64,000 bases of DNA from NCBI RefSeq assembly GCF_001570585.1, contig NZ_BBXF01000005.1, positions 248,001-312,000 on the forward strand, in the 5' to 3' direction. Below the pieces are notes generated by a model that ran no database searches, was not told where the DNA came from, and worked only from the letters and a program-made list of their open reading frames with translations. This document shows positions 17,701-54,512 of this stretch, one piece after another. This DNA comes from Herbidospora daliensis. Its GTDB lineage: Bacteria > Actinomycetota > Actinomycetes > Streptosporangiales > Streptosporangiaceae. Position 1 is the first letter of the stretch. Each line of letters begins with the position of its first letter. Made by a program: the position numbers and the translations under genes.

Positions 17701-17714
17701 GAGACCTTGGTCCC
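17701..17714. promoter_or_regulatory. DosR-like box GAGACCTTGGTCCC
   Basis: Matches the island consensus (reverse strand GGGACCAAGGTCTC). It lies 23 bases before the sulP ATG at 17737 and 84 before the divergent USP operon. Confidence 0.65.
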
Positions 17715-17736
17715 GCCGAATGCGACACTGACGGTC

Positions 17737-19410
17737 ATGATCCATGCGCCGACAGTCGTCACCGACCTGCGGAACTACCGGCGGGCGTGGCTACGAGGCG
17801 ATCTGCTCGCCGGTCTCACCGTGGCCGGATACCTGGTTCCGCAGGTGATGGCGTACGCGACAGTTGCCGGGCTACCGCCCGTGGCCGGGTTGTGGGCGGC
17901 GCTTCCGGCCCTGGCCTTGTATCCGCTGCTCGGGTCGTCCCGGCAACTGTCCATCGGCCCCGAGTCGTCGACCGCGCTGATGACCGCCGTTGCGATCGGG
18001 CCGCTGGCCGCCGGTGACCCCGTCCGGTACGCCCAACTGGCCGCCGCGCTGGCCATCGTGGTGGGCGGGCTCGCACTGATCTGCTGGCTGCTGCGGATGG
18101 GCTTCGTCGCCGATCTGCTGTCCCGGCCGGTGCTGATCGGGTATCTGACCGGTCTCGGCCTGACCATGATCGTCGGCCAGTTGGAGCGGATCACCGGGGT
18201 CCCCGTCCGAGGGGAGACCTTCTTCGAGGAGTTGCTGTCCTTCGCCGCCGGCATGAATCAGGCGGAGCTGTGGACGCTGGTGTTCGCCCTGGTCGTGCTG
18301 GGCTTCCTCTTCCTGCTGGACCGGCTGCTACCCGCCTTCCCCGGCCCTCTGCTGGCCGTCCTGCTGGCAACGGTGATCGTGGCGATGTTCGGGCTGGAGA
18401 GAACTGGCATCGCCGTGATCGGCCCCATCCCCGCCGGACTCCCCACTCCCGAACTGCCGACGCCAGCCGGATGGGGGGAACTCATCCTGCCCGCGGCCGG
18501 GGTGCTGCTCGTGGGCTTCAGTGACAACATGCTCACCGGCCGCTCGTTCGCGGCGCGCACCAGCCAGCGGATCGACGCCAACAGGGAACTGCTCGCCCTG
18601 GGCTGCGCCAATGTCGGCGCCGGACTGCTGCGCGGCTTCCCGATCAGCAGCAGCGGCAGCAGAACGGCCCTCGGGGTGACGGCGGGCGCGCGGACCCAGG
18701 TCCACTCCGTGGTGACCCTGGTCGCGGTGGTCGTCGTGCTGGTCGCGGCGGGGCCGCTGCTGGCCGGGTTCCCGATGGCCGCGCTCGGCGCCATCGTCGT
18801 CTTCGCCGCGACCCGCCTCATCGACTTCGGCGAGTTCCGCCGGCTGCTGGCCTTCCGCCGCAGCGAGTTCGTCCTCGCGTCGGCCACCTGCCTGAGCGTA
18901 CTGATCTTCGACATCCTCTACGGGGTGCTGCTGGCCGTCGCCTTGTCGGTCGCCGAGATGCTGGCCCGGATCGCCCGGCCCCACGACGCCGTCCTGGGGC
19001 TGGTCCCGGGTCTGGCCGGCATGCACGACGTCGACGACTACCCCGCGGCGCGGACCGTTCCCGGCCTGGTGATCTACCGCTACGACTCGCCCCTGTTCTT
19101 CGCCAACGCCGAGGATTTCCGCCATCGTGCCCTGGCCTCGGTCGACGATCACGACGGCGTGGTCCGGTGGTTCGTGCTCAACGTCGAAGCCAACGTGGAG
19201 GTCGACATCACCGCCCTGGACGCCGTCGAATCCCTGCGGACCGAACTCGCCAGGCGTGGGATCGTCTTCGGCCTCGCGCGGGTCAAGCAGGACCTGCGCG
19301 ACTATCTGGACTCCTACGGGCTGAGCAGGTCGATCGGCGAGGAGTTCATGTTCCCCACCCTCCCCACGACGGTGTCCGCCTTCAGGGAGTGGTGCGCCCG
19401 CCACCCATGA
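17737..19410 (+). CDS. SulP-family anion transporter with STAS domain
   Basis: A 557-residue transporter. The SulP signature region is AGLTVAGYLVPQVMAYATVA, read in the text as LLAGLTVAGYLVPQVMAYAT, followed by LPPVAGLWAALPALALYPLL and SRQLSIGPESSTALMTA. The C-terminal STAS domain includes VIYRYDSPLFFANAEDFRHR and VLNVEANVEVDITALDAVES. It likely carries sulfate or bicarbonate and resembles mycobacterial Rv1739c more than the SulP at 11419. The ATG at 17737 is chosen because a TTG at 17707 lies inside the DosR-like box; no ribosome site is visible, so the transcript may be nearly leaderless. Confidence 0.86.
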   Translation: MIHAPTVVTDLRNYRRAWLRGDLLAGLTVAGYLVPQVMAYATVAGLPPVAGLWAALPALALYPLLGSSRQLSIGPESSTALMTAVAIGPLAAGDPVRYAQLAAALAIVVGGLALICWLLRMGFVADLLSRPVLIGYLTGLGLTMIVGQLERITGVPVRGETFFEELLSFAAGMNQAELWTLVFALVVLGFLFLLDRLLPAFPGPLLAVLLATVIVAMFGLERTGIAVIGPIPAGLPTPELPTPAGWGELILPAAGVLLVGFSDNMLTGRSFAARTSQRIDANRELLALGCANVGAGLLRGFPISSSGSRTALGVTAGARTQVHSVVTLVAVVVVLVAAGPLLAGFPMAALGAIVVFAATRLIDFGEFRRLLAFRRSEFVLASATCLSVLIFDILYGVLLAVALSVAEMLARIARPHDAVLGLVPGLAGMHDVDDYPAARTVPGLVIYRYDSPLFFANAEDFRHRALASVDDHDGVVRWFVLNVEANVEVDITALDAVESLRTELARRGIVFGLARVKQDLRDYLDSYGLSRSIGEEFMFPTLPTTVSAFREWCARHP

Positions 19411-19428
19411 ATAACTACTCTTAGTGAC

Positions 19429-20331
19429 GTGATCGTTGTCGGAGTTGACGGGCTGCCCGCTGGCGTCGCGGCGGCCGAATGGGCGGCCCGGGAGTCGCTG
19501 CTGCGCGGAACCGCGTTGAAGATCGTCTACGTGGTTCCCGCGTGGTGTCTGGAGGATGGCCTGTCGGGAGCGGTCGCGGGCATCGGCGCGTGGATGCGTG
19601 AGGGCGGTCGGAGCGCGCTGGCGGAGGCCGTCCACGCCGCCCGGCACGTGGCGGAGGGGATCGCCATCGACACCGCGCTGCTCGGCGGCGACCCGCGCCG
19701 AGAACTCATCGAGATCTCCCGCCAGGCCGACCTGCTCGTCATGGGAGGCTCCGGGCTCAGCTCGCTTCGTGGCCTGCTCGTCGGATCGGTGACGCAGGGG
19801 GTGGCCGGTCACGCCCACTGCGACGTGGTCGTGGTCCGCGAGACGGCCCCAGATCGTCGTGCTCTGGTGGTCGTGGGCGCCGACGCCTCAGAGGCGCAGG
19901 ACACCGTTCTGGACTTCGCGTTCGCGGCGGCGGCGGCGCGTGGCGCCCGCCTTCGTGCCGTGCTCGCCTGGAACTGGCGGGTCGTCGCCGCGAACCAGAC
20001 CCTCGGCGAGGAGCCCGAGATCAGCAGGCGGGGTCTGGCGGAGGCACTGGCGGGCCGCGGGGACAGGTACCCCGAGGTCCAGGTGTCGACGGAGATCGTC
20101 GAAGGGCATCCGGTCGACGTGCTGCGCCATGCCGCCGACCGGGCCGACCTGCTGGTCGTCGGTTCTCATGGGCACGGCACCCTGGCGGGGATGCTGCTCG
20201 GATCGGTCAGCCAGGCGCTGCTGCACCTTGCCCCGTGCCCGCTCGCCGTCGTGCGGGTCCCGTCCCGCGCTGACGACGACACGGGTCACCGGGATCTCAG
20301 CCGAGGTCGCGGTCCCAGTCGATCTCGTTGA
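19429..20331 (+). CDS. Tandem universal stress protein
   Basis: Two UspA domains beginning IVVGVDGLPAGVAAAEWAAR. Domain 1 loop is GGSGLSSLRGLLVGSV, domain 2 loop GSHGHGTLAGMLLGSVSQAL. It is highly similar to the USP encoded at 49049 (shared VVPAWCLEDG/VVPAWCLRSD, ALLGGDPRRELIEIS, EGHPVDVLRHAADRA), so the two are recent duplicates. The start is a GTG 18 bases after sulP, with an AT-rich TAACTACTCTTAG stretch between. The last 35 bases overlap the convergent CBS-BON gene. Confidence 0.9.
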   Translation: MIVVGVDGLPAGVAAAEWAARESLLRGTALKIVYVVPAWCLEDGLSGAVAGIGAWMREGGRSALAEAVHAARHVAEGIAIDTALLGGDPRRELIEISRQADLLVMGGSGLSSLRGLLVGSVTQGVAGHAHCDVVVVRETAPDRRALVVVGADASEAQDTVLDFAFAAAAARGARLRAVLAWNWRVVAANQTLGEEPEISRRGLAEALAGRGDRYPEVQVSTEIVEGHPVDVLRHAADRADLLVVGSHGHGTLAGMLLGSVSQALLHLAPCPLAVVRVPSRADDDTGHRDLSRGRGPSRSR

Positions 20332-21381: not shown

Positions 21382-21395
21382 TGGACCAAAGTCCC
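21382..21395. promoter_or_regulatory. DosR-like box TGGACCAAAGTCCC
   Basis: Matches the island consensus in 13 of 14 positions. It lies about 100 bases before the flavodoxin start at 21494; the 200 bases upstream of it hold no recognisable gene. Confidence 0.7.
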
Positions 21396-23365: not shown

Positions 23366-23764
23366 CTACTTGGGGACGGTGACCGGGATGCGGGTGCCCG
23401 CTTCCTTGGTGTCGGACAGCTTGACGGTGATCTCCAAGATGCCCTTGTCGTAGACGGCGGTCGCGTCCTTCTCCTCCGCACCCTTCGGGAGGGTGACCGA
23501 CCGGGTCAGGCTGCCGTACCTGAACTCGGTGTGGACGGCGTCGGTGTCCTCGCGGTGCCTCTCGGCGTGGATCGTCAGGACGCCACCGGTGAGGGTGACC
23601 TCGACGTCCTCCGGGTCGACGCCGGGGAGTTCGGCGCGCAGGACGTAGCGTCCGTCGTGGACGACGCCCTCCAGCCGCAGGGGCCGGGCTCCCAGGAACG
23701 GGGTCTCCAGCAGTTCGAAGATCTCGGGGATGATCCCCCTGTCCCGGCGCGTGAGTGTGCTCAT
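23366..23764 (-). CDS. Hsp20/alpha-crystallin small heat-shock protein
   Basis: A 132-residue small heat-shock protein of the HspX/Acr type. It has a short N-terminal arm (FELLETPFLGARPLRLEGVV), the alpha-crystallin domain (YVLRAELPGVDPEDVEVTLT, then FRYGSLTRSVTLPKGAEEKD) and a C-terminal I-x-V tail (TRIPVTVPK). It should form ATP-independent chaperone oligomers. Mycobacterial HspX is the best-known DosR target. The start overlaps the stop of the truncated CBS reading frame at 23761 by four bases and is probably translated by coupling; a GGAGG sits just upstream within that frame. Confidence 0.92.
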   Translation of the reverse strand: MSTLTRRDRGIIPEIFELLETPFLGARPLRLEGVVHDGRYVLRAELPGVDPEDVEVTLTGGVLTIHAERHREDTDAVHTEFRYGSLTRSVTLPKGAEEKDATAVYDKGILEITVKLSDTKEAGTRIPVTVPK

Positions 23765-23922
23765 CGCTCCACCTCCTGGTGTGCTGTGTTCGGTTCCATT
23801 CGATCCCGGGCGAGGGCCGGCGGGCAGAGCCGCAAGTCCCCGCCAGGCGGGCCGATCGTCCTCGTCCCGGCCGACACGGAGACCACTTCGGGCGTCATGA
23901 CGTCCCGCACGCTGACACGCAT
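23761..23922 (-). pseudogene. Truncated CBS protein reading frame coupled to hsp20
   Basis: The first 20 residues, MRVSVRDVMTPEVVSVSAGT, are the start of a CBS-domain protein like that at 22623; the rest is unrelated and the frame ends at 53 residues. It keeps a good ribosome site (GAGAGGAG) and its stop overlaps the hsp20 ATG (ATGA). It may survive as a leader peptide that couples hsp20 translation to ppdK. Confidence 0.65.
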
Positions 23923-23935: not shown

Positions 23936-26506
23936 TCATTCCGGGGACAGCAGGGCGGCACGGGCCGCTTCGAGACAGGCCACCGGGACCCGGAAGGGCG
24001 AACAGGACACGTAGTCGAGCCCGGCTTCGTGGAAGAACCGGATCGAGGCGGGGTCACCGCCGTGCTCGCCGCAGACGCCGATCCGCAGGTCGGGGCGGGC
24101 GCGCCGGCCCTCGTCCACGGCGATCGTGATCAGTCGGCCGATGCCGGGCTGGTCGAGGGTCTCGAATGGGGACTCCTCCAGGATCCCCATCCGCAGATAG
24201 GCGGGGAAGATCGACCCTTCGACGTCGTCGCGGGAGAAACCCCACGTCATCTGGGTGAGGTCGTTGGTGCCGAAGGAGAAGAACTCGGCCTCGGAAGCGA
24301 TCCGCCCGGCGGTCAGGGCCGCGCGCGGCACCTCGATCATCGTGCCGATCGGGATGCCGGGGAAGATTCCCTCCATCACCTGTACGGCTTCCGCCTTCAC
24401 GGCCGCCAGTTCCCTGACATCGCCCACCAGGGGCACCATGATCTCGGGCCTCGGCCGGCCTCCGGCGGCCGTGCGCTCGGCGGCGGCCTCCGCGATGGCT
24501 CTGACCTGCATGGCGAAGAGGCCGGGGACGAGCAGACCGAGGCGGACTCCGCGCAGGCCCAGCATGGGGTTGGTCTCCCGCAGGCGGCGTACGGCGGTCA
24601 GCAGCTCGCGGGAGTGGTCGTCGGCGGCGCCGAGGAGGTCCTCGTACGACGGCAGGAACTCGTGCAGCGGCGGATCGATCAGGCGGATCGTCACCGGCAG
24701 GCCGTCCATGGCGGCCAGGATGCGGGTGAAGTCGGCCCGCTGGAGCGGCAGCAGCGCGTCGAGCGCGGCCCGGATCTCGGTCTCGTCCTGGGCGATGATC
24801 AGGCGCTCGACGAGCCTGCGTCGTTCTCCGAGGAACATGTGCTCGGTGCGGCACAGCCCGATCCCGGCCGCTCCGAAGCGGCGGGCGCGGGCGGCGTCCT
24901 CGGGGGTGTCGGCGTTGGCGTACACGCCCAGACGGCGCACCGCGTCGGCGCGGCCGACCAATCGGGCGACCGCCGAGACGAGCGGACCGGAGTCGGCGGA
25001 GACCGCACCGTCGAAGTAGCGGACCACCGGTGACGGCGTGACGGGGAGTTCGCCGGGGTAGACGTGGCCGGTGGCGCCGTCGACGGAGATCAGGTCTCCT
25101 TCTGCGACCACCACGTCTCCGGCGCGGAACTCCCGTCGCTCCTCGTCGACCTCGATGGGCGCGCCGCACACGCAGGTGCGGCCCATGCCCCGGGCGACGA
25201 CGGCGGCGTGGGAGGTCTTGCCGCCGTGGCTGGTCAGGATGCCGGTCGCGGCCAGCATGCCGGGCAGGTCGTCGGGGTTGGTCTCACGGCGGACCAGGAT
25301 GACCGGGCCGCGCGTCTCGGTGGCTCTCCGGGAGTCGAAGACGACTCTGCCGCAGGCGGCTCCGGGCGAGGCCGGCACGCCGGTGGCCAGCGGAGGCGGC
25401 GCGTCGGCCAGGTCGAATCGGGGGAACATCAGCTGGGCGAGGCGGGCGCCGTCAACCCGGAGGAGGGCCTCGTCGAGGGTGATGACGCCCTCGTCGACGA
25501 GCTGGGCCGCGATGACGAAGGCGGCGGCCGCGGTGCGCTTGCCCACCCGGGTCTGGAGCAGCCACAGCCGGCCCTCCTCGATGGTGAACTCCACGTCGCA
25601 CAGGTCGCGGTAGCGGGCCTCCAGCGCCGCGAGGGCGGCCGTGAGCTCGTCGAAGCACCGGCGGTCCAGCTCGGCCAGCCGGCTGAGGGGAAGGGTGTCG
25701 CGGATGCCGGCGACGACGTCCTCGCCCTGGGCGTTCTGCAGATAGTCGCCGTAGACGCCGCGGGCGCCTGTGGCGGGGTCGCGGGTGAAGGCGACACCGG
25801 TGCCGGAAGCGGGACCGCGGTTGCCGTACACCATGGCCATGATGTTCACCGCGGTGCCGAGGTCGTCGGGGATGTGCTCGGCCCGGCGGTAGACACGGGC
25901 CCGCTCGGTGTTCCACGACCGGAAGACGGCCAGCACCGCCCCTTCGAGCTGGGCCTGCGGATCCTGCGGGAACTCCTGGCCGGTCTGGTCGGCGAAGATC
26001 CGCTTGTACGCGGCGACCAGGCGGCGCGGATCGGATTCGGCGGCGTGCGCCTGTTCGAACAGGTCGTGTGGGATGTGGGCCACGGTGGAGCCGTACATGG
26101 AGATGAGCCGCCGGTAGCAGTCCCAGGCGAACCGGTCGTCGCCGGAGACGGCGGCCAGGCCCTCGACGGTGGCGTCGTTGAGGCCGATGTCGAGGATCGT
26201 CTCCATCATCCCCGGCATGGAGAACTTGCCGCCCGACCGGACCGACAGCAGCAGCGGGTCGTCCGGGTCGCCGAGACGGCGGCCCATGGCCCGCTCGACG
26301 TCGCCGAGGTGACGGCAGATCTCGGCGAACAACCCGTCGGGCGCCTCCCCCAGCTTGAGGTACGTGCGGCACGCCTCGGTCGTGACGGTGAAGCCGGGCG
26401 GCACCGGCAGGCCCATCCGGGTCATCTCGGCGAGGTTGGCGCCCTTGCCGCCGAGCAGGTCCTTGAGGTCCATGCCACCGTCGGTGAAGTCACGTACGTA
26501 GGACAT
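23936..26506 (-). CDS. ppdK: Pyruvate, phosphate dikinase
   Basis: An 856-residue PPDK interconverting pyruvate + ATP + Pi and PEP + AMP + PPi. It begins with the ATP-grasp domain (LLGGKGANLAEMTRMGLPVP; VRSGGKFSMPGMMETILDIG). The phosphohistidine swivel segment is TSHGGKTSHAAVVARGMGRT, and the C-terminal TIM barrel has the PEP/pyruvate site with FSFGTNDLTQMTWGFSRDD and GVCGEHGGDP. It is slightly shorter than the usual 870-890 residues but complete. It starts three bases after adhE, so both share the DosR-like promoter. In hypoxia it could run towards pyruvate and ATP in a PPi-linked glycolysis, or replenish PEP. Confidence 0.93.
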   Translation of the reverse strand: MSYVRDFTDGGMDLKDLLGGKGANLAEMTRMGLPVPPGFTVTTEACRTYLKLGEAPDGLFAEICRHLGDVERAMGRRLGDPDDPLLLSVRSGGKFSMPGMMETILDIGLNDATVEGLAAVSGDDRFAWDCYRRLISMYGSTVAHIPHDLFEQAHAAESDPRRLVAAYKRIFADQTGQEFPQDPQAQLEGAVLAVFRSWNTERARVYRRAEHIPDDLGTAVNIMAMVYGNRGPASGTGVAFTRDPATGARGVYGDYLQNAQGEDVVAGIRDTLPLSRLAELDRRCFDELTAALAALEARYRDLCDVEFTIEEGRLWLLQTRVGKRTAAAAFVIAAQLVDEGVITLDEALLRVDGARLAQLMFPRFDLADAPPPLATGVPASPGAACGRVVFDSRRATETRGPVILVRRETNPDDLPGMLAATGILTSHGGKTSHAAVVARGMGRTCVCGAPIEVDEERREFRAGDVVVAEGDLISVDGATGHVYPGELPVTPSPVVRYFDGAVSADSGPLVSAVARLVGRADAVRRLGVYANADTPEDAARARRFGAAGIGLCRTEHMFLGERRRLVERLIIAQDETEIRAALDALLPLQRADFTRILAAMDGLPVTIRLIDPPLHEFLPSYEDLLGAADDHSRELLTAVRRLRETNPMLGLRGVRLGLLVPGLFAMQVRAIAEAAAERTAAGGRPRPEIMVPLVGDVRELAAVKAEAVQVMEGIFPGIPIGTMIEVPRAALTAGRIASEAEFFSFGTNDLTQMTWGFSRDDVEGSIFPAYLRMGILEESPFETLDQPGIGRLITIAVDEGRRARPDLRIGVCGEHGGDPASIRFFHEAGLDYVSCSPFRVPVACLEAARAALLSPE

Positions 26507-26509
26507 CTG

Positions 26510-29062
26510 TCACTCCTCACCACGAGAGGCGCCGTAATAGGCGGCGCGCATGAGCGCGCGCATGTCCGCGAGCATCGGCATGCGCGGGTTGGCGGGGGCG
26601 CACTGGTCCTCGTAGGCGTTGCGGGCCTGCGCGGGCAGGGCGTCCAGGAAGTCCCGCTCGTCGACGCCGAGGGCCTGGAACGACGGCTCGATGCCGACGG
26701 CGTCACGCAGCCGCTCGACGGCTTGGGCCAGTTCCTCCGCGCCGCCGTCGACGCCGAGCGAGCGGGCGATCTCGGCGAAGCGTTCGGGTGCGCGGTAGTG
26801 CTCGTATTTCGGCCAGCCGGTGGGCTTGGCGGGGACGGTGCCGTTGTAGCGGATGACGTGCGGGAGCAGGACGGCGTTGGTCCGGCCGTGGGCGATGTGG
26901 AAGGTCGCGCCCAGGGTGTGCGACATGGCGTGCACGATGCCGAGGAAGGCGTTGCCGAACGCCATGCCGGCGATGGTCCCGGCGTTGTGCATACGTTCCC
27001 GCGCCTCGGGGTCGGCCGCGCCGTTCCGGACGGCCCGCTCCAGGTTGGCGAAGATCAGCTTGATGGCGTGCAGGGCGAGGCCGTCGGTGAAGTCGCTCGC
27101 GTACACCGACACGTAGGCCTCGATGGCGTGGGTGAGCGCGTCGAAGCCGCTGTCGGCGGTGACCACCGGAGGCAGGTCGGCGGCGAGCACCGGGTCGATG
27201 ATCGCCACGGTCGGGGTCAGCGCGTAGTCGGCCAGCGGATACTTCTTCCCGGTCGCCGTGTCGGTGATGACCGCGAAGGGCGTCACCTCCGCGCCCGTCC
27301 CCGAGGTCGTGGGCACGCAGACCAGGCGGGCCAGCCCGCCGAGCGGCGGGAACCGGAACGCGCGCTTGCGGATGTCGAAGAACTTCTGCCGCATGTCGGC
27401 AAAGACGACCTCGGGGTGCTCGTAGCGCAGCCACATGACCTTGGCGGCGTCCATCGCGGACCCGCCGCCCAGCGCGATGATCGTGTCGGGCTTGAAGGAA
27501 CGCATGAGCTCGGCGCCCCGATCCACCGTGGCGACGCTGGGCTCCGGCTCGACGTCGTCGATGATCTGGAGCGCGACCCGCTCGGGACGCCGGTTCAGCA
27601 CGGTGATGATCCGGTCGACGTAGCCGAGACGGGTCATCGTCGGGTCGGTCACGACGGTCACGCGGCGCACGTCCGCCATGTCGGTCAGATAGCGGATGGC
27701 GTGCGGCTCGAAGTAGATCTTGGCGGGGACCTTGAACCACTGGAGGTTGTTGGTGCGCCGCCCGATGCGCTTGATGTTGAGCAGGTCGACGGCCGAGATG
27801 TTGTGCGACACCGAGTTGCGTCCGTAGCTGCCGCATCCGAGGGTGAGCGAAGGCAGGAAGGCGTTGTAGATGTCGCCGATGCCGCCCTGTGAGGCAGGCG
27901 AGTTCCAGATGATGCGCACGGCCTTCACCCGCTCCCCGAACTCCTCGGCCAGAGCCTCGTCGCGGGTGTGGACGGCGGCGCTGTGTCCGAGGCCGCCGAA
28001 CTCGACCATGCGCTCGGCGAGCGTGATGCCCTCCTGGCGGTCGCCCGCCGTCAGCACCGCGAGCACCGGGCACAGCTTCTCCCGGGTCAGCGGCTCAGTT
28101 GGTCCGACGCCCGCCACCTCGGCCAGGATGATCGAAGTCCCCTCGGGAACGGTGAACCCGGCCTGCTCGGCGATCCACTCGACGGGACGGCCCACCACGT
28201 CGGGATTGATGGCGCCCGAGACGAAGAGCAGATCCTCCAGCATGCGCTTCTCGTCGGGGGTGGCCAGGTGGGCGTGCAGACGGCCGAACTCGGCGAGCGC
28301 GGCGTCGTGGATCGCGGCGTCGAGGATGACCGCCTGCTCGCTCGCGCACACCATGCCGTTGTCGAAGGCCTTGCTCAGCACGATGTCGTTCACCGCGCGC
28401 CGCACGTCGGCGGTGGCCTCGACGTAAGCGGGGACGTTGCCCGCCCCGACGCCGAGCGCCGGCTTGCCCGCCGAGTAGGCGGCGCGCACCATGCCGTTCC
28501 CACCGGTCGCCAGGATCGTCGCGACGCCGTCGTGCCGCATCAGGGCGGTCGTCGCCTGGAGCGACGGTTCGGTGATCCACTGCACGCAGTGCTCCGGCGC
28601 GCCGGCCGCCACCGCCGCGTCTCTGACGACCCGGGCCGCCGCGGCGCTGCACTGCTGGGCCGCCGGGTGGAAGGCGAAGACGATCGGGTTGCGGGTCTTC
28701 AGCGCGATGAGGGCCTTGAAGATGGTCGTCGAGGTGGGGTTGGTGACCGGGGTGATCCCGGCGATCACGCCCACCGGCTCGGCGATCTCGACCAGGCCGG
28801 TGATGTCGTCCCGGGAGATCACGCCAACGGTTCTCAGGGCCGCCATGCTGTTGGTCACGTGCTCGCAGGCGAAGAGGTTCTTGACCGCCTTGTCCTCGAA
28901 CACGCCGCGCCCGGTCTCCCGGACCGCCAGGTCGGCGAGTTCCGCGTGCTCGTCCAGCGCCGCGACGGACGCCTTCTTCACGATGTGGTCGATCTGCTCC
29001 TGGGTGTAGGCGGCGTACTCGTCCAGGGCCTTGAGGGCGTTTCCCACAAGTAGGTCGATCAT
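26510..29062 (-). CDS. adhE: Bifunctional aldehyde-alcohol dehydrogenase AdhE
   Basis: An 850-residue fusion of an acetylating aldehyde dehydrogenase and an iron-type alcohol dehydrogenase. The ALDH half has the nucleophile region DNGMVCASEQAVIL; the ADH half has the NAD site ALGGGSAMDAAKVMW and metal-binding histidines in HAIEAYVS, HAMSHTLG and HGRTNAVLLPHV. It reduces acetyl-CoA to acetaldehyde and ethanol, regenerating two NAD. The ATG at 29062 has GGAGG nine bases upstream. First gene of a five-gene operon. The DosR-like box at 29134-29147 is 72 bases upstream. AdhE is characteristic of facultative or strict anaerobes and unusual in filamentous actinomycetes. Confidence 0.94.
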   Translation of the reverse strand: MIDLLVGNALKALDEYAAYTQEQIDHIVKKASVAALDEHAELADLAVRETGRGVFEDKAVKNLFACEHVTNSMAALRTVGVISRDDITGLVEIAEPVGVIAGITPVTNPTSTTIFKALIALKTRNPIVFAFHPAAQQCSAAAARVVRDAAVAAGAPEHCVQWITEPSLQATTALMRHDGVATILATGGNGMVRAAYSAGKPALGVGAGNVPAYVEATADVRRAVNDIVLSKAFDNGMVCASEQAVILDAAIHDAALAEFGRLHAHLATPDEKRMLEDLLFVSGAINPDVVGRPVEWIAEQAGFTVPEGTSIILAEVAGVGPTEPLTREKLCPVLAVLTAGDRQEGITLAERMVEFGGLGHSAAVHTRDEALAEEFGERVKAVRIIWNSPASQGGIGDIYNAFLPSLTLGCGSYGRNSVSHNISAVDLLNIKRIGRRTNNLQWFKVPAKIYFEPHAIRYLTDMADVRRVTVVTDPTMTRLGYVDRIITVLNRRPERVALQIIDDVEPEPSVATVDRGAELMRSFKPDTIIALGGGSAMDAAKVMWLRYEHPEVVFADMRQKFFDIRKRAFRFPPLGGLARLVCVPTTSGTGAEVTPFAVITDTATGKKYPLADYALTPTVAIIDPVLAADLPPVVTADSGFDALTHAIEAYVSVYASDFTDGLALHAIKLIFANLERAVRNGAADPEARERMHNAGTIAGMAFGNAFLGIVHAMSHTLGATFHIAHGRTNAVLLPHVIRYNGTVPAKPTGWPKYEHYRAPERFAEIARSLGVDGGAEELAQAVERLRDAVGIEPSFQALGVDERDFLDALPAQARNAYEDQCAPANPRMPMLADMRALMRAAYYGASRGEE

Positions 29063-29133: not shown

Positions 29134-29147
29134 GTGACCTTCGGCCC
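29134..29147. promoter_or_regulatory. DosR-like box GTGACCTTCGGCCC
   Basis: Matches the consensus imperfectly (reverse strand GGGCCGAAGGTCAC). It is placed between the divergent adhE operon and the nitroreductase-membrane fusion gene at 29187. Confidence 0.55.
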
Positions 29148-31154: not shown

Positions 31155-31212
31155 GGCTCCTCCTCTGTGATCTCTCCCTTCCACCCTCACGCGTCTTCAC
31201 CTGCGCATTGAG

Positions 31213-31225
31213 AGGCTTAGGTCCC
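31213..31225. promoter_or_regulatory. Weak DosR-like half-box AGGCTTAGGTCCC
   Basis: Only one arm (GGTCCC) is well kept. It is 59 bases before the alcohol dehydrogenase gene. Listed as a low-confidence site. Confidence 0.25.
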
Positions 31226-34223: not shown

Positions 34224-34306
34224 CACGTACCTCCTCGGATCGATCGGCACCCCCCACTCTCACGCGCGGCCGGCCGCCGATCACGAAACGGAGGTCACCT
34301 CTGACC

Positions 34307-34320
34307 AGGACCAAAGTCAT
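34307..34320. promoter_or_regulatory. DosR-like box AGGACCAAAGTCAT
   Basis: Eleven or twelve of 14 positions fit the island consensus. It sits midway between divergent pflB and gap. Confidence 0.6.
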
Positions 34321-37094: not shown

Positions 37095-37102
37095 CGCGTT
37101 GT

Positions 37103-37424: not shown

Positions 37425-37435
37425 GTCTCCTCCTG

Positions 37436-40949: not shown

Positions 40950-41031
40950 GGCAAAGCCTCCTTAACGGGCCCTGCCTCCAGACTTCCGCCCACGACCCCC
41001 GAGGGTGCAGGGCCGGACGGCTCGCCGACCG

Positions 41032-41045
41032 GGGACTTTGGTCCA
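41032..41045. promoter_or_regulatory. DosR-like box GGGACTTTGGTCCA
   Basis: Twelve or more of 14 positions fit the consensus. It lies between divergent acg-type nitroreductase and histidine kinase genes, 49 bases before the kinase ATG, suggesting positive autoregulation of the sensor. Confidence 0.7.
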
Positions 41046-41093
41046 TCAACCCCCTTGGGGATTTCGATACCTGTTGGTGGTTCAATTCAGGAC

Positions 41094-42782: not shown

Positions 42783-42788
42783 CGGCCG

Positions 42789-43430: not shown

Positions 43431-43465
43431 GCCGTCAATTTACGTTTGCCGGACATAACGCGACA

Positions 43466-43479
43466 GGGACCAAGGTCCC
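43466..43479. promoter_or_regulatory. DosR-like box GGGACCAAGGTCCC
   Basis: Near-perfect palindrome, both GGGACC/GGTCCC arms complete. It lies between the divergent regulator gene and cydAB. Confidence 0.85.
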
Positions 43480-43537
43480 GTCGTGCGGTGACCGAGTGCC
43501 CTGGGGGCGGTCATGCCGGGCCCTCCACGCTCCCACC

Positions 43538-44923
43538 ATGGACGTCCTCGACCTCTCCCGATGGCAGTTCGGCATCACGACCGTCTACCACTTCCTCTTC
43601 GTCCCGCTCACGATCGGCCTGTCGGTGCTGGTCGCGAGTCTGCAGACCGCCTGGCACCGAACCGGGAAAACGCAATACCTGCGCCTGACCCACTTCTGGG
43701 GGAAGCTCTTTCTGATCAACTTCGCGATGGGCGTGGTGACCGGCATCGTGCAGGAGTTCCAGTTCGGCATGAACTGGAGCGCCTACTCACGGTTCGTCGG
43801 TGACGTGTTCGGCGCGCCGCTGGCCATGGAGGGGCTGATCGCCTTCTTCATGGAGTCCACCTTCCTCGGCCTGTGGATCTTCGGCTGGGACCGGTTGCCG
43901 CGCCGGGCTCATCTGGCCGCGATCTGGCTCGCCTCGATCGGCACGGTGATCTCGGCCTACTTCATCCTCGCCGCCAACTCCTGGATGCAGCACCCCGTGG
44001 GATACCGGCTCAATCCCGTCAGCGGCCGGGCCGAACTCACCGACATCGTGGCGGTGCTCACCAACTCCACGACCCTGGTCACCTTCCCGCATGTGATTTT
44101 CGGAGCGTTCGCCACGGCAGGGGCGTTCATGGCCGGGATCAGCGTCTGGCAGATCGCCCGTGACCGGGACGCGGCGATCTTCCGCACCTCCGCCAGGCTG
44201 GCCATGTCGGTGAGCCTGGTCGCCGCGCTCGGGGTGGCCGTGTCGGGCCACGTCCAGGCTCAGATCATGACCGAGCAGCAGCCGATGAAGATGGCCGCCG
44301 CCGAAGCTCTGTGGGAGGACGAGACCTCGGCCGGTTTCTCCCTGTTCGCGATCGGCGACGTCGAGAACGGCCGCAACTCCGTCAACGTCCAGGTCCCCAA
44401 CGGGCTCAGCCTGCTGGCCACCAACAGCCTCGACGGCGCGGTCGAAGGCATCAACGACGTGCAGAAACGCTACGAGGCCGCCTACGGCCCGGGCGACTAC
44501 AAGCCGGTCGTCGGCATCGCCTACTGGTCGTTCCGACTGATGATCGGCTTCGGCGCGCTGGCCGCGCTGCTGGCCCTGGCCGGACTCTGGCTGACACGCC
44601 GTGGCCGTTTCCCCGGCGGTCCCTGGTTCACCCGGATCGCCCTGCTCGGCATCGGGCTGCCGTTCCTGGCCAACTCCCTCGGCTGGATCTTCACCGAGAT
44701 GGGCCGCCAGCCGTGGACCGTCTTCGGCGTGATGCGCACCGCCGCCGCGGTCTCCCCGGGCGCCGACGTGCCGTCGGTCGCCCTCACGCTCGTGGGATTC
44801 ACTCTCGTGTACGCCGTCCTCGCGGCCGTCGAGATACGGCTGCTGGCCAAGTTCGTCCGGCTCGGTCCCGACCACGAATCCGGCCCGGAACCCGCCCCGG
44901 CCGCCGCCGCCCTGTCCTACTAG
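43538..44923 (+). CDS. cydA: Cytochrome bd oxidase subunit I
   Basis: A 461-residue subunit of the high-affinity quinol oxidase. The N-terminal RWQFGITTVYHFLFVPLTIG carries the conserved haem b595-ligand histidine (His18); TFPHVIFGAFATAGAFMAG carries the b558 histidine; the late GRQPWTVFGVMRT segment is a family signature. The Q-loop (MKMAAAEALWEDETSAGFSL) is of the short type. It reduces O2 to water at low oxygen while oxidising menaquinol. Preceded by the best DosR-like box. No cydCD assembly transporter is seen in the window. Confidence 0.95.
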   Translation: MDVLDLSRWQFGITTVYHFLFVPLTIGLSVLVASLQTAWHRTGKTQYLRLTHFWGKLFLINFAMGVVTGIVQEFQFGMNWSAYSRFVGDVFGAPLAMEGLIAFFMESTFLGLWIFGWDRLPRRAHLAAIWLASIGTVISAYFILAANSWMQHPVGYRLNPVSGRAELTDIVAVLTNSTTLVTFPHVIFGAFATAGAFMAGISVWQIARDRDAAIFRTSARLAMSVSLVAALGVAVSGHVQAQIMTEQQPMKMAAAEALWEDETSAGFSLFAIGDVENGRNSVNVQVPNGLSLLATNSLDGAVEGINDVQKRYEAAYGPGDYKPVVGIAYWSFRLMIGFGALAALLALAGLWLTRRGRFPGGPWFTRIALLGIGLPFLANSLGWIFTEMGRQPWTVFGVMRTAAAVSPGADVPSVALTLVGFTLVYAVLAAVEIRLLAKFVRLGPDHESGPEPAPAAAALSY

Positions 44924-44932
44924 AAGGCCGCC

Positions 44933-45931
44933 ATGGAACTCACCACCATCTGGTTCATCCTGATCGCGGTCCTGTGGACCGGCTACTTCGTGCTGGAGGG
45001 CTTCGACTTCGGGGTCGGCGTGCTGCTGCCGTACGTGTCCCGGGACGAGGCCGACCGCAAACTGGTCGTCGCCTCCATCGGCCCCGTCTGGGACGGCAAC
45101 GAGGTGTGGCTGCTGGTCGCGGGAGGCGCGACCTTCGCGGCCTTCCCCGAGTGGTACGCCACCCTCTTCAGCGGTTTCTACCTGCCGCTGTTCCTCATCC
45201 TGCTGGCGCTGATCGCGCGCGGTATCGCCCTGGAGTACCGCAACAAGAGCGACTCCACACAGGGCTGGGACCGCACGTTCTTCTGGGGCTCCCTCGCGCC
45301 CGCGTTCCTCTGGGGTGTCGCGTTCGCCAACATCGTGCGCGGGGTCCCGCTCGACGCCGACCACGAATTCACCGGGAACCTGCTCACCCTCCTGAACCCG
45401 TACGCCCTGCTCGGCGGCCTCACCACACTGGCGCTGTTCACCTTCCACGGCGCCCTGTTCCTCGCCCTGCGCACCGACGGGGAACTGCGCCAGACCTCCG
45501 CCCGCATCGGACGGCAGGCCGGATTGGCCGCCTTCCTGGCCGGAGGTCTGTTCCTGCTGCTCACCCAGCTGCACGACCCGAAGCCGGCCACCTGGGCCAC
45601 CGCCCTCGTTGCCGCAGCCGGCATCGCCGCCGCGCTGGCCCTCATCGGGCGGCGTGACGGCTGGGCGTTCACCGCGAACACCGTCGCCGTCATCGCGATC
45701 ACCGCCACCTTGTTCGGCGGGCTGTGGCCCGACGTCATGCCCGCGCTCGACCCGGCCAACAGCCTGACCGTGGCGAACGCGAGCTCCACCCCGTACACCC
45801 TGGGCGTGATGACCTGGGTGGCGGCGATCTTCACCCCTGTCGTGCTGGCCTACCAGGCGTGGACCTACTGGGTCTTCCGTCGGAGGCTGACCGCCCCGCA
45901 GGACCAAAGTCCCGTCCGCGAAGGGTCTTGA
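44933..45931 (+). CDS. cydB: Cytochrome bd oxidase subunit II
   Basis: A 332-residue polytopic subunit, starting WFILIAVLWTGYFVLEGFDF, with the conserved GPVWDGNEVWLLVAGGATFA and FFWGSLAPAFLWGVAFANIV. It starts ten bases after cydA, so they form one operon. The last 11 codons contain the DosR-like box at 45900-45913 that faces the DoxX gene, so coding sequence and regulatory site overlap. Confidence 0.95.
   Translation: MELTTIWFILIAVLWTGYFVLEGFDFGVGVLLPYVSRDEADRKLVVASIGPVWDGNEVWLLVAGGATFAAFPEWYATLFSGFYLPLFLILLALIARGIALEYRNKSDSTQGWDRTFFWGSLAPAFLWGVAFANIVRGVPLDADHEFTGNLLTLLNPYALLGGLTTLALFTFHGALFLALRTDGELRQTSARIGRQAGLAAFLAGGLFLLLTQLHDPKPATWATALVAAAGIAAALALIGRRDGWAFTANTVAVIAITATLFGGLWPDVMPALDPANSLTVANASSTPYTLGVMTWVAAIFTPVVLAYQAWTYWVFRRRLTAPQDQSPVREGS
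45900..45913. promoter_or_regulatory. DosR-like box AGGACCAAAGTCCC inside cydB
   Basis: Thirteen of 14 positions fit. It overlaps the cydB 3' end and lies 118 bases before the DoxX-family gene, giving that gene its own regulated promoter. Confidence 0.7.
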
Positions 45932-46030
45932 GGACCACGGCCGAGTGCCTTCCAGCACTGAGCGCGGTCCCCCGAAAACGGTGTCATTGAAGTGCGACAA
46001 ACGAGAGAAATCCTCTGAAAGGGGCTCACG

Positions 46031-46588
46031 ATGGCCACCACGCACGGACGCCGCATCTTCAACACGACCCCCCTCGTCACCCCCGAGGCGGCCACCCCTG
46101 CCACGCGCCTCGTGGACCAGGTCTGGGCCGTCGCCCGCATCGCCCTCGGCTGGATCTTCCTCTGGGCCTTCGCCGACAAGCTCTTCGGCTTCGGCTTCGC
46201 CACCCCCGCCGCCAAGGCGTGGGTCAACGGAGGCACCCCGACCACCGGCTTCCTGAAGGGCGCCGCAGAAGGCCCTCTCGGCGGGTTCTACAACGCGCTG
46301 GCCGGCCACACCCTGGTCGACTGGCTGTTCATGCTCGGCCTCCTCGGCATCGGCGCCGCCCTGATCGCCGGCATCGGCCTGCGGGTCGCCGCCGGGGCGG
46401 GCACCCTGATGATGGTCTTGATGTGGGGCGCGGAACTGCCGCTCACCACCAACCCCTTCATGGACGACCACATCGTCTACGCCATCGTCCTCATCGGCCT
46501 GGCCGCGGCCGCAGCCGGCAACACGTGGGGCCTGGGCCGCTGGTGGGCCCGCCTCCCCATCGTCCAGAAGTACCCGATCCTCAAGTAG
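46031..46588 (+). CDS. DoxX/DoxD-family membrane protein
   Basis: A 185-residue protein with four membrane helices (VARIALGWIFLWAFADKLFG; LVDWLFMLGLLGIGAALIAG; AAGAGTLMMVLMWGAELPL; HIVYAIVLIGLAAAAAGNTW), the DoxX/thiosulfate-quinone-oxidoreductase small-subunit fold. The N-terminus is an unusually long, Thr/Ala-rich tail. DoxX proteins feed electrons to quinone or support membrane redox stress complexes; the exact role here is not known. GAAAGGGG precedes the ATG. It has its own DosR-like box and its own terminator, so it is a single-gene unit. Confidence 0.85.
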   Translation: MATTHGRRIFNTTPLVTPEAATPATRLVDQVWAVARIALGWIFLWAFADKLFGFGFATPAAKAWVNGGTPTTGFLKGAAEGPLGGFYNALAGHTLVDWLFMLGLLGIGAALIAGIGLRVAAGAGTLMMVLMWGAELPLTTNPFMDDHIVYAIVLIGLAAAAAGNTWGLGRWWARLPIVQKYPILK

Positions 46589-46600
46589 CAGCACACTCAT

Positions 46601-46641
46601 CGCGACGACGCCCCCCGGTTCTCCGGAGGGGCGTCGTCGCG
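46601..46641. terminator. Intrinsic hairpin terminator after doxX gene
   Basis: Stem CGCGACGACGCCCC (46601-46614) with GGGGCGTCGTCGCG (46628-46641), with an inner CCGG/CCGG pairing in the loop. Downstream bases are GTTTCC. Confidence 0.85.
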
Positions 46642-46662
46642 TTTCCAACGGCCCTTCCGCTC

Positions 46663-46676
46663 GGGACCTAGGTCCC
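46663..46676. promoter_or_regulatory. DosR-like box GGGACCTAGGTCCC
   Basis: A perfect 14-bp palindrome, 55 bases before the phosphoketolase start. A second shorter dyad GGGACGGTCCC follows at 46678-46688. Confidence 0.85.
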
Positions 46677-46717
46677 TGGGACGGTCCCGGCGTGCAGACG
46701 ACGATCGGAGTATGGAC

Positions 46718-49009
46718 ATGCTGGAGAAAGTCGACGCCTACTGGCGGGCCGCCAACTACCTCTCGGTCGGCCAGATCTACCTGCTGGACAATCCCCTGCT
46801 GACCGAGCCCCTCGCGGCCGGGCACATCAAGCCGCGCCTGCTCGGGCACTGGGGCACCACTCCGGGCCTCAACTTCGTCTTCGCCCACCTGAACCGCGTC
46901 ATCACCGAACGCGGCCAGGACCTGATCTACATCGCCGGACCGGGTCACGGCGGGCCCGCCGCCGTCGCGCACGCCTGGCTCGAGGGCTCCTACAGCGAGA
47001 CCTACCCGGACGTCTCCCAGGACGCCGCCGGGATGCGCCGCCTGTTCCGCCAGTTCTCCTTCCCCGGCGGCATCCCCAGCCACGTGGCACCCGAGACCCC
47101 CGGCTCCATCCACGAGGGCGGCGAACTCGGCTACTCGCTCGCCCACGCCTACGGCGCCGCCTTCGACAACCCCGGTCTCGTGGTCGCCTGCGTGATCGGC
47201 GACGGCGAGGCGGAGACCGGGCCGCTGGCGGCGAGCTGGCACTCGAACAAGTTCACCGACCCCGAGCGCGACGGCTCCGTCCTGCCGATCCTGCACCTGA
47301 ACGGCTACAAGATCGCCAACCCGACCGTGTTGTCCCGGATCCCCGCCGAAGAGCTGACCAAGCTCATGGAGGGCTACGGCTACCGCCCGTACACCGTCGA
47401 GGGCGAGGACCCGGCGGCCATGCACAAGCTGATGGCCGACACCCTGGACGCCGTCTTCGACGACATCGCGGCCGGCCTCCAGCCGATGATCATCCTGCGC
47501 ACCCCCAAGGGCTGGACCGGCCCCAAGGAAGTCGACGGCCTCCCCGTCGAAGGGACCTGGCGCTCCCATCAGGTGCCGCTGGCCTCCGTCCGGGAGAACC
47601 CCGTCCACCTGGCGATGCTGGAGGAGTGGATGCGCTCCTACCGCCCCGAGGAGCTGTTCGGCGCCGACGGCCGCCCGGTCGCGGACATCCTCGCCACCGT
47701 GCCCGCCGGCGACCGGCGCATGAGCGCCAGCCCGCACGCCAACGGCGGGAAGCTGCTCCGCCCGCTCGTCCTGCCCGACTTCCGCGACTACACGGTGGAC
47801 GTGCCCGCCCCCGGAACGGCGACCACCGAACCGACCCGCGTCCTGGGCCGTTTCCTCCGTGACGTGATGGCCGCCAACGAGGCCAACTTCCGGATCATGG
47901 GACCCGACGAGACCGACTCCAACCGGCTGTCGGCCGTATTCGACGTCACCGACCGGGCGTGGAACGCGCAGATCCTTCCCACCGACCAGCACCTGGCGCA
48001 CGGCGGCCGGGTCATGGAGGTGCTGTCGGAGCACCTGTGCCAGGGCTGGCTGGAGGGTTACCTCCTCACCGGCCGGCACGGCCTCTTCAACTGCTACGAG
48101 GCGTTCATCCACATCATCGACGCCATGTTCAACCAGCACGCCAAGTGGCTGTCGACCACCCGGAAGATCCCCTGGCGCCGCCCCGTCGCCTCGCTCAACT
48201 ACCTGCTGTCCTCCCACGTCTGGCGGCAGGACCACAACGGCTTCAGCCACCAGGACCCCGGATTCCTCGACGTCGTCGTCAACAAGAAAGCCGAAGTCGT
48301 ACGCGTGTACCTGCCCCCGGACGCCAACACCCTGCTGTCGGTCGCCGACCACTGCCTCCGCTCCCGCGACTACGTCAACGTGATCGTGGCCGGCAAGCAG
48401 CCCGTCCTCGACCTGTTCGGGTCCGACGAGGCGATCACCCACAGCACCCGGGGCCTCGGCATCATCGACTGGGCCTCCACCGACGCCGGCGAGGAACCCG
48501 ACGTGGTGCTGGCCTGCGCGGGTGACGTCCCGACGCTGGAGACCCTCGCCGCCGCCGCGCTGCTGCGCGAACACCTGCCGAGCCTGCGGGTCCGCGTCGT
48601 CAACGTGGTCGACCTGATGCGACTCCAGCCGACGACCGAACACCCCCACGGCCTGCCCGACGCGGAGTTCGACGCCCTGTTCACCACCGACAGGCCGGTC
48701 ATCTTCAACTTCCACGGCTACCCGTGGCTGATCCACCGCCTCACCTACCGCCGGGCCGGGCACCCCAACATCCACGTGCGCGGCTACAAGGAGGAGGGGA
48801 CCACGACCACCCCCTTCGACATGGCCATGCTCAACGACATCGACCGCTACCACCTGGTCATGGACGTCATCGACCGCGTCCCCGGCCTGGGCACCACGGC
48901 CGCCCACCTGCGCCAGCGCATGAGCGACGCCCGGCTGCGCGCCCGCGCGTACACCCGCGAACACGGCGAGGACCTCCCCGAGATCCAGACCTGGACCTGG
49001 CCGCGCTGA
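46718..49009 (+). CDS. xfp: Xylulose-5-phosphate/fructose-6-phosphate phosphoketolase
   Basis: A 763-residue thiamine-diphosphate enzyme that splits xylulose-5-P or fructose-6-P with phosphate to acetyl-phosphate and a shorter sugar phosphate. Signatures: [73 protein letters not shown], and [24 protein letters not shown] lies seven bases before the ATG at 46718; another ATG at 46712 is almost on top of it. It heads an operon with a USP, the P-type ATPase and a nitroreductase, behind the most perfect DosR-like box. No acetate kinase or phosphotransacetylase is nearby. Confidence 0.95.
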
Positions 49010-53486: not shown

Positions 53487-54310
53487 TCATCCCTTGACGA
53501 CCAGGGTCCGGGCACCGGAGGGGTCTTGGATCAGCGCGGCGACCTTCTCGTAATGGGTGACGGCGTCGCGCCGTGCGTGCGCGGCCGGGGAGTTCCCCAG
53601 CGCCAGGTCCGACGCGTTCGCGCCGATCGCGGTGGCGTCGGTGGCGAGCAGCCCCCAGCTCATCAGCTGTGCGCTGGCGATGCCCTCGGCGGGCACCGCA
53701 CGCACGAAGCCGATCCGGCCCTGGGTCAGGGTGCCGGTCTTGTCGGTGAACAGCGTGTCGATGTCACCGAGGTCCTCGATGCAGACGAGCCGTTTGACCA
53801 GGACCTTGCGGGCGGCCATCCGCCGTGACCCGGTGGCGAGGCTGGCCGCGATCGCCAGGGAGAACAGCAGGCGTCCAGGATGGACCGGTTCACCTCGACC
53901 CGCACGGGCCGACCGTCGTGTAACACCAGCGACTGAGGACGGATCTGCGAATGGAGCGCCTCGGCGGACTTCTCGGCCCGGTACTCGTCGAAGAACCCCC
54001 AGCCCGGCCGACGCCGCCACGATGGTGCTGATGATCACCGCGCCGGACCGCTCTCCGACGAAGTACGACACCGCGGCGGCGATCAACAGCAGCACGGAGT
54101 GGTGATCGGATCTGGTGCCACAGCACCGGCAGCAGCCGGGCCAGGTGCGAGGTGACGGTGGTGGGCCCGTATCGGGCCAGGCGGACCTCGCTCTGCGTCT
54201 GGGAGGCCGCCTTCGCCGGCGTCCAACCGCCGCAGCACGTCTGTCCCGGAGAGCGAGGCGACCTCGTCCACAGTGACAGGTTTGTTCGCGGTGAGGTTCA
54301 ACGTGATCAT
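53487..54310 (-). pseudogene. Degenerate P-type ATPase
   Basis: Pieces of a P2-type ATPase appear in several minus-strand frames: VDEVASLSGTDVLRRLDAGE at the start, HSVLLLIAAAVSYFVGERSG AVIISTIVAASAGLG in the first helices, LHDGRPVRVEVN, then MAARKVLVKRLVCIEDLGDI and DTLFTDKTGTLTQGR with the phosphorylation site. It stops at ARTLVVKG, half-way through the nucleotide domain. Whole blocks (TGES loop, helices 3-4 in part, C-terminal half) are missing. It is a different subfamily member from the intact pump at 49905, not a simple duplicate. Confidence 0.82.
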
Positions 54311-54409
54311 CTTCCGTGGCCGACCGCCAGAGGCGTGACAAACAAGCTGGGCACCTCCACTCTCGCCTGGCCGAGGTGATCGATAAGGAAGCGGAAGTCA
54401 TCCCAGGCC

Positions 54410-54423
54410 AGGACCAAGGTCAC
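54410..54423. promoter_or_regulatory. DosR-like box AGGACCAAGGTCAC
   Basis: Twelve of 14 positions fit. It lies 100 bases before the relic ATPase start and about 195 before the CBS gene at 54617, and may be the former ATPase promoter. Confidence 0.6.
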
Positions 54424-54498
54424 CCCGATCCGCTCGCAGCGGGTGGCTTGATGATCGGTGGTGTCCATCCCGAGCGCTGACCGAAGTCCGGCGCTTTC

Positions 54499-54512
54499 GG
54501 GACTTTCGGCCC
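54499..54512. promoter_or_regulatory. DosR-like box GGGACTTTCGGCCC
   Basis: GGGAC arm intact, second arm GGCCC. It lies 105 bases before the CBS protein ATG at 54617 and is the second box in this intergenic region. Confidence 0.6.

Follow-up and report, generated by a model that had tools for sequence, protein, structure and literature searches.

A DosR-type palindromic box and a DevR/DevS-like pair in a putative oxygen-limitation island of Herbidospora daliensis

Introduction

Which regulator could hold together a cluster of stress, respiratory and fermentation genes in a member of the Streptosporangiaceae? This question is raised by a 64,000-nt stretch of the Herbidospora daliensis genome (contig NZ_BBXF01000005.1; G000:C5:248001-312000; hereafter the window), which represents 0.75% of the 8.52 Mb genome. 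It carries a DevR/DosR-type response regulator (42789-43430, minus strand), a DevS/DosT-type kinase (41130-42782, plus strand) and repeated copies of a palindromic box, GGGAC-N4-GTCCC. A total of 56 genes were called in the window, and 40 of their proteins were scanned against Pfam and 10 against NCBIfam. An initial annotation, made from the sequence alone, proposed that the box joins about eleven transcription units into a DosR-type regulon. We found that this one box does link about 11 promoter regions to the encoded DevR and DevS, as judged from genome enrichment, conservation, intergenic bias, 22-bp tandems, -10 spacing and DevR/DevS similarity. The boxes, their spacing and conservation, the domain content and the closest relatives were established computationally. 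A DosT-like kinase, a DevR-type regulator and paired boxes would very probably explain the control of the island, with binding, phosphorylation, activation and the oxygen signal as predicted parts of the scheme. Thus, a known type of switch seems to control fermentation genes as well. New here are boxes conserved upstream of cydA, pfl, adhE and xfp, the intact pair of pyruvate formate-lyase (PFL) and its activase, the presence of three DevRS pairs, and a spacing rule obtained by measurement.

Strict boxes are concentrated around devR genes

All 11 box coordinates of the initial annotation were verified in the window with their sequences, and the boxes share the consensus GGGAC-C/T-WW-N-GTCCC. 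Four sites had been described as having both arms intact; we found intact GGGAC/GTCCC arms at three (35438, 43466 and 46663, all intergenic), the number four being correct for sites without mismatch to RGGACCWWNGTCCC (35438, 43466, 45900 and 46663). Nearly all sites had also been placed between genes, 20-120 bases before a gene. By our gene calls nine of the 11 are indeed intergenic. Over the listed sites, the distance from box to next start is 35-193 bp. The site at 17701 is not intergenic and overlaps the called TTG start of a SulP gene.

Counts against chance depended on how strictly the box was defined. The loose consensus with up to three mismatches gave 114 matches in the window (112 expected), and arms matching at 9 or more of 10 positions without a rule for the centre occurred nine times against a Markov mean of 10.1. 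Scanning with the loose consensus (up to three mismatches in the window, up to two genome-wide) was dropped because true sites were indistinguishable from chance. When an A/T-A/T centre was required in addition to arms of at least 9/10, eight sites were found against a Markov mean of 0.7 and a maximum of 2 in 30 runs. These eight (17701, 21382, 35438, 41032, 43466, 45900, 46663 and 54499) had all been listed before, and the window contains no others of this form.

Across the genome, 37 distinct positions have at most one mismatch to GGGACYWWNGTCCC, and eight of them fall in the window, where 0.28 would be expected (binomial P 3e-10). At up to two mismatches there is no genome-wide excess (402/393 vs 413/415 for the reversed-pattern control). 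Among the 29 near-perfect positions outside, four lie beside the two other devR genes of this genome, all intergenic. The remaining 25, away from the three devR loci, comprise 17 inside genes and eight between genes, so the idea of a strict box spread genome-wide did not hold. Given this clustering in the window and beside the paralogues, the strict box is concentrated around devR genes. Of the eight outlying intergenic boxes, two (L121 and L132) are in stretches with few called genes and one (L130) is between converging genes. A wider regulon was sought in the neighbours of outlying boxes (eight proteins at five of the eight places) and rejected; a HisKA_3 kinase and a WYL regulator are among them, and no gene with an evident oxygen-related role. 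One possible outlying target is an intergenic one-mismatch box at G000:C1:1447204 (L119), which has a 7/10 partner 22 bp upstream and two flanking genes, of which one has no Pfam match and the other has an RTX-type repeat.

The same box recurs in relatives. Among named relatives, those closest to the window DevR include Sphaerisporangium, Microbispora, Streptosporangium and Nonomuraea (84-89% identity). In a set of 80 named DevR loci (1.48 Mb), whose counts are not phylogenetically independent, 33 of 36 exact boxes are intergenic, where 20% of the bases are intergenic.

Promoter geometry

For 13 sites in the window, the best offset within 45 bp for a second box was -22, with a mean of 5.4 of 10 arm matches against a background of 3.1. 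From the 80 loci of relatives we collected 150 intergenic sites of at least 9/10, a second box being counted from 6/10 upwards. Among the 85 oriented sites, the share with a second box is 32% for +22, 22% for +23 and 21% for -22, the background being 4.65%. As +23 is also raised beside +22, the box spacing has one base of slack.

The -10-like word TANNNT also has preferred positions: of 193 site-gene pairs in relatives, 11 have it starting at +23 and 10 at +45, with a mean of 0.5 at other offsets, and nine control palindromes gave 2 in 389. The promoter of devR itself supplies nine (+23) and five (+45) of these matches. Without devR targets, 2 and 5 of 163 remain against 0.32 elsewhere, and the shorter A-N3-T occurs 17, 18, 22 and 21 times at +23, +24, +45 and +46, respectively, against 3.7 elsewhere. 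The distance from box to start codon likewise peaks at 34-37 and 56-59 bp, 22 bp apart; when devR targets are left out, the peaks hold 13 and 14 of 128 pairs. Other distances hold 2.8 per 4 bp, and the control palindromes give 5 and 5 of 169 at the peaks. A Shine-Dalgarno-like word precedes only 3 of 27 starts at the peak distances, against 18 of 34 other starts at 20-70 bp, and the gene caller prefers such words, a bias that opposes this low count.

A-N3-T is present at 23, 24, 45 or 46 for 10 of the 17 site-gene pairs tested in the window, where about 1.6 are expected from background. In the simplest reading of these distances, the centre of the near box would lie about 42 bp before the predicted transcription start and the far box 22 bp upstream of it, and many messages would be leaderless. 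Such geometry is that of a DevR activator. The pairing of a primary with a secondary box, and the position of the near box at -35, are found here mainly as a statistical trend in relatives. By their -10 offsets, the boxes at 29134 and 43466 would be the near box for one neighbour and the far box for the other, and that at 34307 would be far for both.

Conservation and probable loss of the island

In three congeners (G004, G005 and G006; 23 aligned rows, 31212 among them), 297 of 322 box bases are identical (92.2%) against 1713 of 2116 other intergenic bases (81.0%); the Fisher P of 1e-7 is optimistic, as aligned rows share sites and ancestry. Each of the 11 listed sites could be aligned in at least one of these congeners.

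Gene content differs among them. G005 has the island from pyruvate phosphate dikinase (PPDK) to the CBS gene in unchanged order. G004 retains devS, devR and DoxX together with universal stress protein (USP) and CBS genes, and the stretch read (L245 on G004:C49, compared with window positions 31258-49009) holds remnants in the original order at 91-95% identity, namely 564 of the 2394 bp of cydAB in three pieces, 81 bp of pfl-pflA and the first 226 bp of xfp. A search of the whole G004 genome at E 1e-100 found no Pfl, AdhE or CydA, and its Xfp match is another copy (82%). In G006, the last 100 bp of cydB are kept and Xfp sits elsewhere within the cluster. At least in this genus, the oxygen-limitation block has probably been lost by deletion, the box at the end of cydB staying before DoxX; the deletion in G004 rests on one draft genome, in which an assembly error may be involved. 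A purely acquired pfl/adhE/cyd block was considered and rejected, the G004 remnants indicating that loss accounts for at least part of the patchiness. No tRNA was found in the window as an integration point.

We surveyed 61 genomes of the family, including our own (E 1e-100 for Pfl, AdhE, Xfp and CydA; E 1e-60 for GAPDH). Pfl occurs in nine of them, AdhE in four, Xfp in 54, CydA in 47 and GAPDH in 60. Upstream regions of the loci returned by the search (up to 30 per gene, own genome included) were scored by counting the arm matches and adding 0.5 for each A/T in the centre, with a maximum of 11. Six of nine Pfl loci score at least 10, and G060 carries GGGACCTTCGTCCC. All five AdhE loci, two of them from one genome, score 9-10 (shuffle P 0 to 0.095). 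Island-type CydA (at least 76% identity) has a box of score 9 or more in 6/6 loci, each with a second box of at least 6 at +22, compared with 5 of 23 other CydA loci with upstream DNA. In 10 of 30 Xfp loci, the start is preceded at 34-37 bp by a box scoring at least 9.

Regulator, sensor and paralogues

The regulator contains Response_reg and GerE domains and matches DevR (PDB 3c3w) with an E-value of 8.9e-79 over residues 1-211. The claim that it retains the DosR recognition helix was confirmed, LAEKTVKNYVS being kept in the alignment with this structure. K179, K182 and N183 are contact residues of DevR. The kinase has a GAF-GAF-HisKA_3-HATPase_c architecture, and DevS and DosT give the best alignments with its GAF-A domain, which keeps the proximal His (FPPGHPPM) and the distal Tyr (LYLTEK). 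Where DevS has Glu87, it has Gly, as in DosT, and it has GALGV in common with the DosT chain 2vzw. The Gly at this place marks the window kinase as apparently belonging on the DosT side; roles of the DevS/DosT heme His, Tyr and Glu87 residues are treated in PMC4082495.

Two more close DevR-like regulators are present in the genome (C2, 83% identical; C3, 79%), each adjoining a DevS-like kinase. The three paralogues share the helix stretch LAEKTVKN(Y/H)VS with a single Y/H difference. Grouped by bands of identity only, devR types II and III were found in 7/7 searched genomes of the genus and type I in 5/7. As called in our one genome, kinase II of C2 (L111:15565-17106) is without about 60 residues of GAF-B, and kinase III of C3 (L113:16838-18481) is without ten residues just before the heme His. 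Such differences between the sensors, together with near-identical regulator helices, could be a diversification of signals onto one box.

The best-surviving alternative starts from these paralogues and would refine, rather than replace, the control proposed for the regulator at 42789: the network would be common to all three devR genes, and this regulator would be one, perhaps minor, user of it. We give this a little less than an even chance. There are boxes beside each of the three genes, and two paralogues with a near-identical recognition helix could bind them too, but near-perfect boxes lie mostly around the type I gene (8 vs 4).

Proposed mechanism and alternatives

In the mechanism that we propose, the heme kinase at 41130 would sense loss of oxygen, or binding of nitric oxide or carbon monoxide, and phosphorylate the regulator at 42789, which would then bind paired GGGAC-N4-GTCCC boxes, a strong and a weak one spaced by about 22 bp. 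The promoter-near box, its centre about 42 bp before the transcription start, would overlap the -35 region and aid binding of RNA polymerase. The partner, centred about 64 bp before the start, would add cooperativity, and the strong box may be either of the two. Several intergenic boxes would be shared by the two genes beside them, being near for one gene and far for the other, or far for both. Besides autoregulation, the scheme predicts control of a high-affinity oxidase, of USPs and nitroreductases, and of a fermentation module that comprises the second GAPDH, PPDK, PFL, AdhE and Xfp.

Several observations weigh against this proposal. The sites at 17701, 29134, 34307 and 54410 are individually weak. 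Only devR has a full TANNNT among the 17 window pairs, the -10 element being degenerate in this GC-rich DNA. About half of the window sites are without the -10 signature: none was found at the expected offsets for 17701, 23849, 35438, 45900, 54410, 54499 and 41032 towards devS. The site between pfl and gapdh in the window scores 8.0, no better than shuffles (P 0.475), island-type GAPDH (at least 62%) has a score of 9 or more in only 3/8 loci against 2/22 for other GAPDH, and 20 of 30 Xfp loci are without a fixed-distance box of score 9.

It is improbable that Rex or another redox regulator controls the central-carbon and bd genes and that the boxes serve the classical stress genes only. The idea draws on reports that cydAB is under Rex control in S. 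coelicolor and is not DevR-dependent in M. smegmatis (PMC7739888). However, no Rex-operator-like site with fewer than four mismatches to the operator pattern used was found in the window, including before cydA, and the orthologues of cydA, pfl and xfp retain boxes in some or all of the examined loci. It is hardly credible that the eye over-read palindromes which are ordinary in a genome of 70% GC. Looser forms do have chance-level counts (including arms of at least 9/10, and two mismatches genome-wide), but chance does not account for the strict form, its clustering and conservation, or the spacing of tandems and of the -10. This contradicts the idea for 35438, 41032, 43466, 45900 and 46663, whereas 17701 may be such a palindrome.

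More tentatively than the involvement of all three paralogues, we suggest that DevR may act as a fermentation switch in part of the Streptosporangiaceae. The island would put a mixed-acid route and cytochrome bd under often leaderless two-box DevR promoters, giving supposed obligate aerobes anaerobic ATP and NADH rebalancing, beyond mere survival. The route would comprise the second GAPDH, PPDK, PFL with its activase, AdhE and perhaps an ADP-forming acetate ligase; some relatives keep the island and others lose it.

Relation to known systems

By the tests run here, the system is assigned to the DosR/DevR/OsdR family on sequence grounds. Its regulator and kinase are closest to those of Mycobacterium tuberculosis. 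We know of no pfl, adhE or xfp in the M. tuberculosis DosR regulon, in which Rv2626c is presumably the counterpart of the CBS genes here and Rv1997 that of the P-type ATPase. The box also corresponds to the mycobacterial consensus NNNGGGHCNWWNGNCCCBNN (PMC3029386, PMC5309233, PMC2947987), and USP, nitroreductase, HspX-type and Rv1733c-type genes are common to both regulons (PMC5309233). Cooperative binding to a primary and a secondary box, of which the nearer overlaps -35, is already described for M. tuberculosis DevR (PMC3029386), and the mechanism proposed here would therefore be inherited, not new. The set had been thought larger than the mycobacterial regulon; the latter has about 48 genes in nine blocks (PMC5309233), so that the difference is one of content, not of size.

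The OsdK/OsdR system of Streptomyces coelicolor (Urem et al. 2016, PMC5069765), a direct precedent, is likewise a DevS/DevR-type pair within a USP-rich cluster, with boxed nitroreductase, PPDK, pyridoxamine oxidase and USP genes, and OsdR binds mycobacterial DevR targets in vitro (PMC5069765). Its box is given as AGGGCCGATCGGCCCT (PMC5069765), a consensus that the boxes here, GGGACCWWNGTCCC, do not follow, although some S. coelicolor sites (AGGGACCTTCGGCCCC) are intermediate. For OsdR, 43 sites were predicted before 27 units across the chromosome (PMC5069765), in contrast to the clustering at three devR loci here. The terms cytochrome bd and phosphoketolase are absent from the main text of that paper. 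In S. lividans, a putative PFL, PPDK, a second GAPDH (Gap3) and cytochrome bd rise together with OsdR (PMC6302529). The authors left direct OsdR control of bd open (PMC6302529), and PflA is there an annotated pseudogene fragment (PMC6302529), whereas PFL and PflA are intact here with boxes before them. We found no description of the present system among the listed open-licence papers on DosR, DevR or OsdR with fermentation genes, which is weak evidence of absence.

These results bear on the streptomycete anaerobic paradox, i.e. genes for anaerobic life without anaerobic growth, which is discussed in PMC5069765. They also offer a compact non-mycobacterial model for the logic of promoters under DevR. 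By the spacing rule, two boxes are separated by about 22 bp, the -10 follows after about 23/45 bp and the start codon is often about 35/57 bp away. This rule would allow direct targets to be predicted from sequence and helps to sort true sites from chance palindromes in GC-rich genomes.

Individual sites and gene cargo

The 11 listed sites and 31212 face about 16 possible promoters, several boxes lying between divergent genes, with unequal support. Three of them, with arm matches of 8/10 (29134), 7/10 (34307) and 8/10 (54410), none significant alone, rest on conservation.

The perfect box between devR (minus strand) and cydAB (plus strand), which has a 7/10 box at 43488 (43466-43501), matches at 13, 13 and 10 of 14 positions in the three congeners, and TAAATT stands at +23 towards devR, with the start codon 35 bp off. 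CydA and CydB of cytochrome bd oxidase (Pfam; 43538-45931, plus strand) follow it. Within the last 32 bases of cydB, a plus-strand box (45900-45913) precedes DoxX (46031) by 117 bp; it matches 12-13 of 14 in three congeners, with both arms intact in G004 and G005. Another perfect box (46663-46676, plus strand; 12-14 of 14 in three congeners) precedes the phosphoketolase Xfp (Pfam; 46712-49009, plus strand), which is followed by Usp, the P-type ATPase and the nitroreductase NTR2. On the other side, a tandem box (41010-41045) lies between the nitroreductase NTR1 (40026-40949, minus strand) and devS (41130, plus strand). Its 41032 copy is 14/14 in three congeners, with A-N3-T at +24/+46 towards NTR1 and none towards devS.

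A perfect plus-strand box (35438-35451; 13-14 of 14 in G004, G005 and G006) stands before Usp (35503) and CBS (36380) genes. Between pfl (31989-34223, minus strand) and gapdh (34405, plus strand) is a weak tandem box (34285-34320, 7/10 each) with A-N3-T at +45 and +46. The box GAGGCTTAGGTCCC (31212-31225, minus strand), absent from the earlier list, precedes a zinc alcohol dehydrogenase gene (30144-31154, minus strand); it has a second 7/10 box at 31234, is 14/14 in G005 and has A-N3-T at +23. The box at 29134-29147, with a second 7/10 box at 29156, is common to adhE-ppdk (minus strand) and an F420-dependent-type reductase gene (29187, plus strand). It is 13/14 in G005, with A-N3-T at +45 on the minus and +23 on the plus strand.

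Towards the left end, two tentative 8/10 boxes 22 bp apart (23827-23862, minus strand), also absent from the earlier list, precede Hsp20 (23366-23764, minus strand); no congener alignment was obtained for 23849, which also has no -10 at the expected offsets. The plus-strand box at 21382-21395 (12/14 in G005; A-N3-T at +46) lies before hypA (21485) and an Rv1733c-family gene (22019). The weakest listed site, GAGACCTTGGTCCC (17701-17714), lies between Usp (16772, minus strand) and SulP (17707, plus strand). It has 9/10 arms and an A/T centre, matches G005 at 11/14 positions with the centre altered, and has no -10 at 23/24/45/46 towards SulP. At the right end, a box (54410-54423, plus strand; 14/14 in G006) and a tandem box (54477-54512, plus strand) precede the CBS gene at 54617, with 54499 matching 12-13 of 14 in two congeners.

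Besides the enzymes treated below, the domain set of the window includes USPs, CBS and CBS-BON proteins, Hsp20, nitroreductases, a pyridoxamine-oxidase protein, a P-type ATPase and an Rv1733c-family protein. The earlier view that the genes behind the boxes fit oxygen limitation stood for cytochrome bd, pfl, adhE, gap, xfp, USPs, nitroreductases and the sensor, and failed for flavodoxin. None was found among the 40 of 56 proteins scanned with Pfam, the nearest being a flavodoxin-like succinyl-CoA-ligase domain at 37436. PFL and its activating enzyme (31258-34223, minus strand; Pfam) match TIGR01255 with 1165.5 bits against a cut-off of 994.2, with IACCVS and RVSGY present. AdhE and PPDK (23936-29062, minus strand) match NF010378 (1344.8 vs 951) and TIGR01828 (1162 vs 843.45). 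The second, island-type GAPDH (34405-35397, plus strand) matches TIGR01534 (399.7 vs 367.2) and is 55% identical to the other copy at G000:C5:1048925.

A region of 37436-40949 on the minus strand encodes the nitroreductase and a GNAT-acyl-CoA-synthetase fusion of ACD or Pat type (Pfam, NCBIfam). In the fusion (37436-40090), a GNAT domain is ahead of an NDP-forming acyl-CoA synthetase, with NCBIfam matches below the curated cut-offs. Instead of making ATP as an acetate ligase, this protein may acetylate other proteins, as an acetyltransferase of the Pat type. A 304-aa frame at 53487-54401 has no Pfam match and shows a P-type-ATPase-like stretch at residues ~182-290 (NCBIfam, below cut-offs). 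A second phosphoketolase, 82% identical to the island Xfp, is encoded at G000:C2:362461-364755. Two AdhE copies in another genus (L153 and L154 of G021) each have one TGA inside the matched frame.

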